Origin: Crocinitomicaceae bacterium
GTDB lineage: Bacteria; Bacteroidota; Bacteroidia; Flavobacteriales_D; Sanyastnellaceae
Assembly (NCBI GenBank): GCA_002693775.1
Contig: NZRP01000048.1
Span: forward strand, 1 to 64,000
Length of the DNA stretch: 64,000 nt
Reading direction: 5' to 3'
The notes beneath the pieces are model-generated. The model did no database searches, had not been told where the DNA came from, and saw nothing but the letters and a program-made list of their open reading frames with translations. Positions 18,090 through 19,484 of this stretch are shown here, piece by piece; position 1 is the first letter of the stretch; each line of letters opens with the position of its first letter. A program made the position numbers and the translations under genes.

Positions 18090-18171
18090 GGGCCCAGTTA
18101 TTCGTGAAAATGCTAATAAACATTGAGTATTCAAAGGATTTCCACATTTATACGTTAGAAGGTTTTAAAAT

Positions 18172-18200
18172 CGTCTATTAATGACAAAGTTTAATAGACG
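18172..18200. repeat. Perfect 9-bp inverted repeat upstream of the first small outer-membrane protein gene
   Basis: CGTCTATTA (18172-18180) and TAATAGACG (18192-18200) are perfect inverted copies with an 11-bp spacer. The repeat ends 31 bp before the ATG at 18232. It could be an operator or an RNA hairpin. It is not repeated upstream of the paralogue at 18986. Confidence 0.5.
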
Positions 18201-18231
18201 GATATTAGCCCAAACCTAAAAACTTGGTTCT

Positions 18232-18687
18232 ATGAAAAAATTATTTATTTTATGTGTATGTGCTGGATTAGCATGTACTTTGTCTGCTCAAATGACTCTG
18301 TCTAAGGGCGAAATGGTTGCAGGAGTTACTTATAATTCTGCATATGCTAACGAAACCATCACTGATGATCTTGCATTCACTGTTGGTTATGCTGTTTCTG
18401 ATGAGTTCACTATTATGGCTACAAGAGACGAAAACACTGAAGGAGAAGATGCATCAATTAATCTTGGTGTACGTTATTTCTACAACGGTTTTTACGGTCA
18501 GCTAAATATGATCGATGTTCAAGACGCAACAGCTGATGATGAAGATGCAACAATGAGTGTTGGTAAAATGTTCGCTCTTGATTGGGTTGATGGATTATAC
18601 TTAGATCCTAGTATTACTATTTCTGGACTTGGGTCTGATAATGATACTGATACATCATTTGGTATGACTCTTGGAATGCGTTTCTAA
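18232..18687 (+). CDS. Small outer-membrane beta-barrel-like protein, paralogue 1
   Basis: 151 residues. The signal peptide ends LACTLSAQ. The mature part is rich in Gly, Asp and alternating strands (LAFTVGYAVSDEFTIMATR, INLGVRYFYNGFYGQLNM) and ends GMTLGMRF. The terminal aromatic residue fits an outer-membrane barrel of about eight strands, though I cannot name a family. It is paralogous to the protein at 18986-19429: similar length, signal peptide, GYAVxDE/DD segment, YFYNGF/YFKNGF segment and VGKM motif. A terminator follows, so it is probably monocistronic. Function is unknown. Confidence 0.75.
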   Translation: MKKLFILCVCAGLACTLSAQMTLSKGEMVAGVTYNSAYANETITDDLAFTVGYAVSDEFTIMATRDENTEGEDASINLGVRYFYNGFYGQLNMIDVQDATADDEDATMSVGKMFALDWVDGLYLDPSITISGLGSDNDTDTSFGMTLGMRF

Positions 18688-18708
18688 GAATTAGTTGATT
18701 ACAAAATT

Positions 18709-18736
18709 AAAAGGGTCGCTATATGCGGCCCTTTTT
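18709..18736 (+). terminator. Rho-independent terminator
   Basis: AAGGGTCGC (18711-18719) pairs with GCGGCCCTT (18725-18733) through one G-U wobble, with a short loop and a following T tract. It lies 22 bp after the stop of the first small barrel gene. Confidence 0.85.
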
Positions 18737-18985
18737 GATTCTAAACACTTTATAATCTAAATAGTATAGGTATTTATATAAACTAAGTACACTTTGTTCT
18801 TATCCATACTGGTTTAAAAACAATAAAAATACTATTTCTTATCAACTTATGTAAATGCATTAAGTGTCAGTAAAAACTGGTATTTCAGAGGATATTCACA
18901 ATTTTTCGTGAATACCTAATAAAAAGTTATTTGTGTGAGACTCTTTTCCTGTCGGATATTCGCCCCAACCTTAAAACTTGGTTCT
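18737..18985. other. Non-coding spacer between the two small barrel genes
   Basis: About 250 bp, strongly AT-rich, with no credible gene. It holds a 7-bp inverted repeat, TATTCAC at 18893-18899 and GTGAATA at 18908-18914, extendable by two G-C pairs past a bulged A. It also holds a 33-nt block (18953-18985) that is 30/33 identical to the block just upstream of the first paralogue (18199-18231). It presumably carries the promoter of the second paralogue, but no exact TAnnTTTG is present at the expected place. Confidence 0.6.
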
Positions 18986-19429
18986 ATGAAAAAATTATTT
19001 ACACTTTGTGCGTCTGCTCTATTAGCATTCACACTTTCTGCTCAAGTTGAGCAAGCTGAAGGATCTTGGTACCTAGGTACTGGTGATGCTACTAATCTTT
19101 TAAACCTTTTCTCTGATAACGGAATCGGTATGAGCGCTACTATTGGGTACGCTGTACAAGATGATCTTATCGTAGGAGGTACTGTTTCATCTGACTCTGG
19201 TGAAAACGTTTACGATCTTGATGTTACTTACTTCAAGAATGGATTCGGTTTCGGTGTGTCCCTAGACAACGCTATGGAGGCTAACGATGAGGAGCGTACT
19301 GTTGGGTTTAATGTAGGTAAGATGGTTATGGTAGGTTCAATTAGCGATAAGCTATTTGTTTACCCAAACATAGCTATTGACAGTGATCAGAACATGGAGT
19401 CTGGAATATCTTTCGGATTTAAATTCTAA
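18986..19429 (+). CDS. Small outer-membrane beta-barrel-like protein, paralogue 2
   Basis: 147 residues from the ATG at 18986 (MKKLFTLCASALLAFTLSAQ), a clear signal peptide. A longer upstream frame would run through the conserved leader and is rejected. The mature protein has Gly/Asp-rich strands (IGMSATIGYAVQDDLIVGG, YDLDVTYFKNGFGFGVSL) and ends GFKF, fitting an outer-membrane barrel. The first 16 coding bases and 30 of the 33 bases upstream match paralogue 1. Codon use looks biased to preferred codons, which suggests high expression. A strong terminator follows. Function is unknown. Confidence 0.75.
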   Translation: MKKLFTLCASALLAFTLSAQVEQAEGSWYLGTGDATNLLNLFSDNGIGMSATIGYAVQDDLIVGGTVSSDSGENVYDLDVTYFKNGFGFGVSLDNAMEANDEERTVGFNVGKMVMVGSISDKLFVYPNIAIDSDQNMESGISFGFKF

Positions 19430-19448
19430 GAGATATTTATCTTATTTG

Positions 19449-19474
19449 AAAGGGCTACCTTCGGGTAGCCCTTT
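19449..19474 (+). terminator. Rho-independent terminator with a UUCG tetraloop
   Basis: A perfect 11-bp stem AAAGGGCTACC / GGTAGCCCTTT encloses TTCG and is followed by a T-rich tail. The start of the acetyltransferase lies only 22 bp beyond. Confidence 0.93.
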
Positions 19475-19484
19475 TTATTTGCCT

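Follow-up and report, generated by a model that had tools for sequence, protein, structure and literature searches.

Two tandem outer-membrane protein genes in a 64,000-nt stretch of Crocinitomicaceae DNA (the window) are preceded by a nearly identical 33-nt block. This block is a real conserved element, and most likely one of an ordinary kind, a promoter core followed by a short leader. It probably forms the downstream half of a conserved promoter together with a short mRNA leader, and the contrast with the coding parts is probably explained by a barrel that evolves fast and is sometimes replaced. The block is conserved and specific to its locus, the spacing between an upstream dyad, a box in the block and the ATG is nearly fixed, and the leaders follow orthology. 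A first-pass annotation of the window had offered a shared promoter, a regulator site, an alternative sigma factor, RNA-based control or gene conversion as explanations. That interpretation is partly supported; it missed barrel replacement, which is seen in relatives, further accounts for the difference in conservation between leader and coding sequence, and is a more interesting part of the result than the promoter-leader element.

The Outer-Membrane Gene Pair and Its Leader Block

The blocks at 18199-18231 and 18953-18985 are identical at 30 of 33 positions without gaps, and the first 16 coding bases after both ATGs agree at all 16, both as first reported. As a control, the 33 nt before the ATG were compared in 48,205 pairs drawn from 311 other genes sampled in this genome; the highest identity was 26/33, reached by one pair, followed by 24/33 and 21/33 with one pair each. 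The 16 coding bases alone are less special, since the same sample held one pair with 16/16 and one with 15/16. A 22-nt core with at most three mismatches was found twice, while 0.01 occurrences were expected in shuffled windows. The suggested search for further copies was run on the bacterium's own assembly (1.87 Mb, 92% complete), and the 33-mer with up to three mismatches returned two places, both of which are the reported ones.

Two minor features were also noted. Two other genes of the genome, L075 near 3635 and L084 near 16048, have 26 of 33 upstream bases in common, with a TTACAGGTCTTAA core. A perfect 9-bp inverted repeat, GTCTATTAA-N9-TTAATAGAC, at 18173-18199 ends at the first base of block 1; it is absent from copy 2 and from the orthologue G3a, and may be due to chance.

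Judged by their sequences, both proteins look like small outer-membrane barrels. They resemble the OmpX/OmpA-like barrels of Pfam family OMP_b-brl (PF13505) in the signal peptide, the approximately 125-130 mature residues and the C-terminal F, and the eight strands predicted for gene 2 are another likeness to OmpX/OmpA-like barrels. They differ in scoring below the cutoff of Pfam, as gene 2 reached 18.8 bits against a gathering cutoff of 28.7 and gene 1 gave no match. The earlier description as small barrels therefore holds in outline, with the eight strands of gene 2 in its favor and Pfam support below cutoff (gene 2) or none (gene 1). Matches to OMP_b-brl were found in 5 of 18 relatives at E ≤ 0.1, the best at 0.0019. 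AlphaFold2 predicted a signal helix and eight strands for gene 2 with a mean pLDDT of 75. A sequence comparison with the PDB gave no clear relative (best E 0.12), and the fold match by Foldseek was weak (best E 1.3e-3, TM 0.42), with many lipocalins among the matches.

The gene order is ABC-F ATPase (ettA-like, reverse), outer-membrane genes 1 and 2, GNAT acetyltransferase and pyrG (reverse), where the neighbors were named by reading their translations. The same order with the same tandem pair is present in the relative L009 (Crocinitomicaceae MAG, SP201). In G002, two outer-membrane copies lie near contig ends (L026 and L032, contigs 33 and 125); one adjoins the ABC-F gene and the other adjoins GNAT and pyrG, and they could be a tandem pair split by the assembly.

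Table 1. Features of the two gene copies and their upstream regions, in positions of the window.
Feature	Position	Strand	Remarks
Outer-membrane barrel paralogue 1 (151 aa)	18232..18687	+	Orthologue G3a, mature protein 90% identical
Outer-membrane barrel paralogue 2 (147 aa)	18986..19429	+	Orthologue G3b, mature protein 59% identical
Terminator-like hairpin and T run after gene 1	18710..18736	+	Seen by eye; absent from the list of the terminator scan
Terminator-like site after gene 2, 12-bp stem and T run	19448..19475	+	Found by scan
Dyad, copy 1 (regulator-like site), TCCACA-N6-CGTTAG	18141..18158	+	10/12 to TTMACA-N6-YGTKRA; centre 82 nt before ATG
Dyad, copy 2, TTCACA-N6-CGTGAA	18895..18912	+	12/12 matches; centre 82 nt before ATG
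Proposed -7 box, copy 1 (GATATTAG), left half of block	18201..18208	+	51 nt from dyad centre; 4/6 to TAnnTTTG
Proposed -7 box, copy 2 (GATATTCG)	18955..18962	+	From dyad spacing and comparison with TAnnTTTG
Proposed 5'UTR, copy 1, AACC-N9-GGTT-CT	18213..18231	+	Predicted start, 4 nt after box; MFE -1.7 kcal/mol
Proposed 5'UTR, copy 2, AACC-N9-GGTT-CT	18967..18985	+	As copy 1; predicted start
Rival promoter box P1, copy 1 (TATTAATG)	18176..18183	+	4/6 to TAnnTTTG; lies 25 nt before the block's own box

Age of the Duplication

The two copies of the window are called w1 and w2, and G3a and G3b are their orthologues in one relative. The coding parts were said to diverge strongly, which is confirmed by an identity of 28% between the mature proteins of w1 and w2; the corresponding values are 90% for w1/G3a and 59% for w2/G3b. 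The leaders sort in the same manner. At positions 9 and 14 of the block, w1 and G3a both have A, A, where w2 and G3b have C, C, and the arms of the dyad likewise pair w1 with G3a and w2 with G3b. Since leaders and proteins both group by orthology, the duplication most likely predates the divergence of the two species, and both leaders appear to have been retained side by side. Purifying selection would have preserved the block in both tandem copies since before that split.

Gene conversion would also keep both 5' ends alike, and it fits a tandem pair only some 750 nt apart in which identity drops after base 16 of the gene. It is, however, highly improbable, as block positions 9 and 14 follow orthology, the arms of the dyad do likewise, and relatives with one detected copy retain a similar leader. 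The proposal of gene conversion at the 5' end is thus unsupported.

Distribution of the Block

A profile search for the outer-membrane protein identified 11 copies in 8 of 14 genomes of the genus. A covariance model of the leader recovered the same 11 copies at 44-60 bits; because the model was built from these copies, their match is given by construction, and the informative part is the score gap. No other leader match above 19.1 bits was obtained in the 14 genus genomes among the candidates scored, at most 150 per genome. Among the sites scored in these genomes, the block is found before one family of outer-membrane genes only, and the conservation of the block in related genomes, part of the check proposed at first, is strong. 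Six genus genomes gave no match to the outer-membrane protein, and G006 is the only readable loss among them: its ABC-F and GNAT genes are about 70 nt apart (L137, 2380-2480), and the outer-membrane gene and the leader are both missing. The other five are unreadable, four having no ABC-F match at E ≤ 1e-60 and G013 having an ABC-F gene without its start in the locus.

A 27-mer with three mismatches matched in 3 of 100 genomes, the bacterium's own included and G079 being another. The covariance model, when applied to 114 genomes of the family, gave a match at E ≤ 0.1 in 15, of which 8 are leaders of outer-membrane genes. Eight extra places were found in family genomes, the best at 23.5 bits (E 0.02), and in four of these (L064, L068, L069 and L070) boxes resembling CG[GC]ATATT were seen by eye before other reading frames. 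These boxes gave the first idea that the left half of the block is a -7 box; as the places were picked by the search itself, they are a lead only. The idea of a regulon that shares the block was rejected, with two 33-mer places in the own genome and no further strong match of the covariance model in the genus or in the 114 family genomes.

Promoter Architecture

All 11 genus copies carry a dyad, TTMACA-N6-YGTKRA, centred 82-84 nt upstream of the start codon. Taken individually, it reaches significance (p ≤ 0.03, 300 shuffles) in nine of them; the exceptions are w1 (p = 0.097) and G3a, and the w1 dyad stands at the position common to all 11. Family relatives outside the genus contributed 22 new loci, three of which did not enter the dyad count: G132 (no start), G143 (Ns upstream) and G052 (short upstream). 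G125, G120 and G115 gave matches in the family search but no locus. In the 19 usable upstream regions, the best dyad was at 83 in nine (one tied) and elsewhere in ten, including four at 80, and the mean dyad score at 83 was 7.6 compared with 4.2 overall (sd 0.75). Neither ABC-F nor pyrG was matched in the loci of three of the nine (G122, G129 and G124), so that the dyad seems tied to the gene and not to the neighborhood.

A regulon test showed that the dyad is not enriched across the genome, as the motif gave 110 matches at up to one mismatch and its reversed control gave 173. Of the three exact matches that this genome contains, one (L115, 1501-1518) lies, by eye, about 88 nt before the ATG of a reading frame. 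To our knowledge, the half-site TTAACA/TGTTRA fits no factor that could be named. In class I activator promoters, CRP is positioned at about -61.5, and the 18-bp dyad described here is alike in being centred approximately 63 nt before the predicted start. The regulator site suggested earlier is supported as a regulator-like dyad at a constant distance, but one that lies about 50 nt upstream of the block and not inside it.

Nine of the 11 genus copies have the box at +51 from the dyad centre, in the form GATATTnn or CATATTTn, and in the remaining two, G4 and G2c125, it is shifted by one to +50 or +52. In the family upstream regions with the dyad at 83, nnnnTTTG is present at +51 in six of nine, and it is not exactly there in G122, G129 and G124. 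The arrangement in the genus is a box, 4-5 nt, AAC, 15-17 further nt and the ATG. The box matches TAnnTTTG at 3-5 of 6 positions in the 11 genus copies and at 4-5 of 6 in seven orthologues from genus g3. In the sampled upstream regions, exact TAnnTTTG is enriched at a distance of about 12-50 nt from the start codon; a de novo motif search (EM, 125 upstream regions) returned no recognizable promoter motif.

The primary-sigma promoters of Bacteroidota are described as having TTTG at -33 and TAnnTTTG at -7 (PMC6847099, PMC9723704). The same sources report that T-12 and T-6 of the -7 element are nearly invariant in F. johnsoniae, that a distance of 4-5 nt between the -7 element and the start marks probable promoters in this species (PMC6847099), and that F. 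psychrophilum has a median 5'UTR of 24 (PMC9723704). The present arrangement is alike in that the box lies 4-5 nt before the predicted start and the 5'UTR is short. It differs in its GATATT-like box, which shows two usual departures from the consensus (T-12 is wanting in 11/11 genus copies and T-6 in 8/11), and in the conserved dyad at about -63 of the predicted start.

Taken together, the spacing of dyad, box and ATG and the 4-5 nt rule of F. johnsoniae suggest that the left half of the block is a -7 box and that the right half is the entire 5'UTR. The dyad would act as the site of a regulator, and it would be followed after about 50 nt by the weak -7 box (GATATTAG/GATATTCG). Transcription would start 4 nt after this box at AACC, and the putative 5'UTR of about 19 nt would extend from there to the ATG. 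A shared promoter, one of the original suggestions, is the best reading, although it is drawn from sequence and a rival box is present upstream. With this reading, the unexplained likeness of the two blocks becomes a promoter map that can be put to the test, in a lineage that is known here from MAGs.

Alternative Readings of the Block

The rival box, P1, is a TAnnTTTG-like sequence 25 nt upstream of GATATT; if it were the promoter, the whole block would be a transcribed 5'UTR element. The P1 form TATATTTG is perfect in G3b and G1 and matches at 5/6 in G5 and G9, and the mean match of P1 in the genus copies (4.0/6) is on a par with that of the box in the block (3.8/6). However, the match falls to 1-3/6 in G3a, G4 and G2c125 (1 in G3a, 2 in G4), although all three keep the block, and the dyad-to-box distance that links the genus with genus g3 favors the block's own box. 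P1 is considered unlikely. The departure of the block's own box from TAnnTTTG at usually invariant positions could mean that an alternative sigma factor reads the block, and other motifs (SM4-6) are known in F. psychrophilum (PMC9723704). Against this, the orthologues of genus g3 carry TTTG at the matching distance (TTGATTTG, TTGCTTTG), so that an activator acting on a weak primary-sigma box is enough, and a dedicated regulon was not seen in the own genome or in the 14 genus genomes. The alternative sigma factor once suggested is thus not needed, and it is improbable despite the unusual box.

The right half of the block may also have a role as RNA, in that the AACC...GGTT stem at the 5' end of the mRNA would protect the message or tune its translation. 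A stem of 4-5 bp at the very 5' end is predicted in 10 of 11 5'UTRs; the inner pair becomes T-A and A-T in G5 and G9 provided that the stem is allowed to slip by one base, and two of seven g3 leaders (G138 and G137) could, by eye, form GAAC/GTTC. These stems are weak, though (-1.0 to -1.7 kcal/mol), G4 does not fold, and the other five g3 leaders appear by eye to have no stem. No compensatory change or covariation was found on the MAFFT alignment, and the window gave 0 Rfam matches at gathering score. A leader hairpin is possible, and RNA-based control, as first proposed, is weakly supported by the stem and not by covariation; a control element of this kind is unlikely. The preferred reading of the block remains a promoter core with a short leader.

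Replacement of the Barrel in Relatives

The leader is 84-97% identical in pairs whose mature proteins are only 24-43% identical (w1/G2c125, w1/G2, w2/G1 and G1/G2). Genomes with the same locus, one per species, were compared in the ABC-F protein, the leader and the mature barrel. The identities were 98%, 97% and 43% for G2/G1, 97%, 100% and 59% for G034/G133, and 97%, 88% and 66% for G138/G137; G034/G015 is a reverse case with 83%, 70% and 94%. On the DNA level, the identity of G2 and G1 is 94-96% along the ABC-F gene. It is 83% in the dyad region and 68% in the spacer, rises to 97% over leader and signal peptide, drops to 42% in mid-barrel and returns to 87% directly behind the stop, where the contig of G2 ends. 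The GNAT gene was compared on DNA in G1/G11 and is 91% identical. No such hole in the barrel was found in G2/G11 (barrel 95%) or in G5/G9 (79%, like the flanks).

The tree of mature barrels places G1 among other genera (clade support 96/95), and a single genus clade was rejected (AU p 0.002); the conflict is only just significant when the long rows are left out (AU p 0.046). In the ABC-F tree, which was made by a quick method, the genus is one clade and G1 stands beside G2 and G11. The mosaic identity and the tree conflict together show that barrels have been replaced inside the gene in some relatives. High identity in the flanks, low identity in the middle and tree conflict form a pattern that reads as allele swapping in these relatives. 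The mature barrel evolves fast and, in some lineages, is replaced within the gene, and promoter, leader, signal peptide and the sequence behind the stop codon are left in place. For the pair in the window, the 41 nt that immediately precede the block are 54% identical between w1 and w2; this DNA is old as well, and ordinary long divergence may suffice there. The divergence of the window's own pair may thus be ordinary and old.

Mosaic or swapped outer-membrane alleles are known from neisserial porins and Opa. The present case is alike in having conserved ends and an exchanged middle of a surface protein; it differs in that almost all of the mature protein is exchanged and that the exchange is observed between genera. 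The literature searches turned up no account of the leader, nor of barrel exchange in this family, which is not proof of absence from print. It is conceivable, and proposed here only tentatively, that the block, the signal peptide and the post-stop stretch act as a fixed frame. Incoming or tandem copies would recombine in the DNA of the leader and signal peptide and at the 3' end. In this way the cell would present a different barrel on its surface, under pressure from phages or grazers, with promoter, regulation and export signal unchanged. If this were true, tandem pairs such as that of the window would be intermediates. What matters more generally is that the barrel of a small outer-membrane protein is replaced from genus to genus while its location on the chromosome stays fixed, and if phages drive the replacement, the locus would be a natural marker for contact between host and virus in these bacteria. 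A small lipoprotein-like reading frame that is absent from the window (SCSSSTLIQ / GCSSSTMIQ) lies near the outer-membrane gene, on the GNAT side, in L024 (G009) and L027 (G004).
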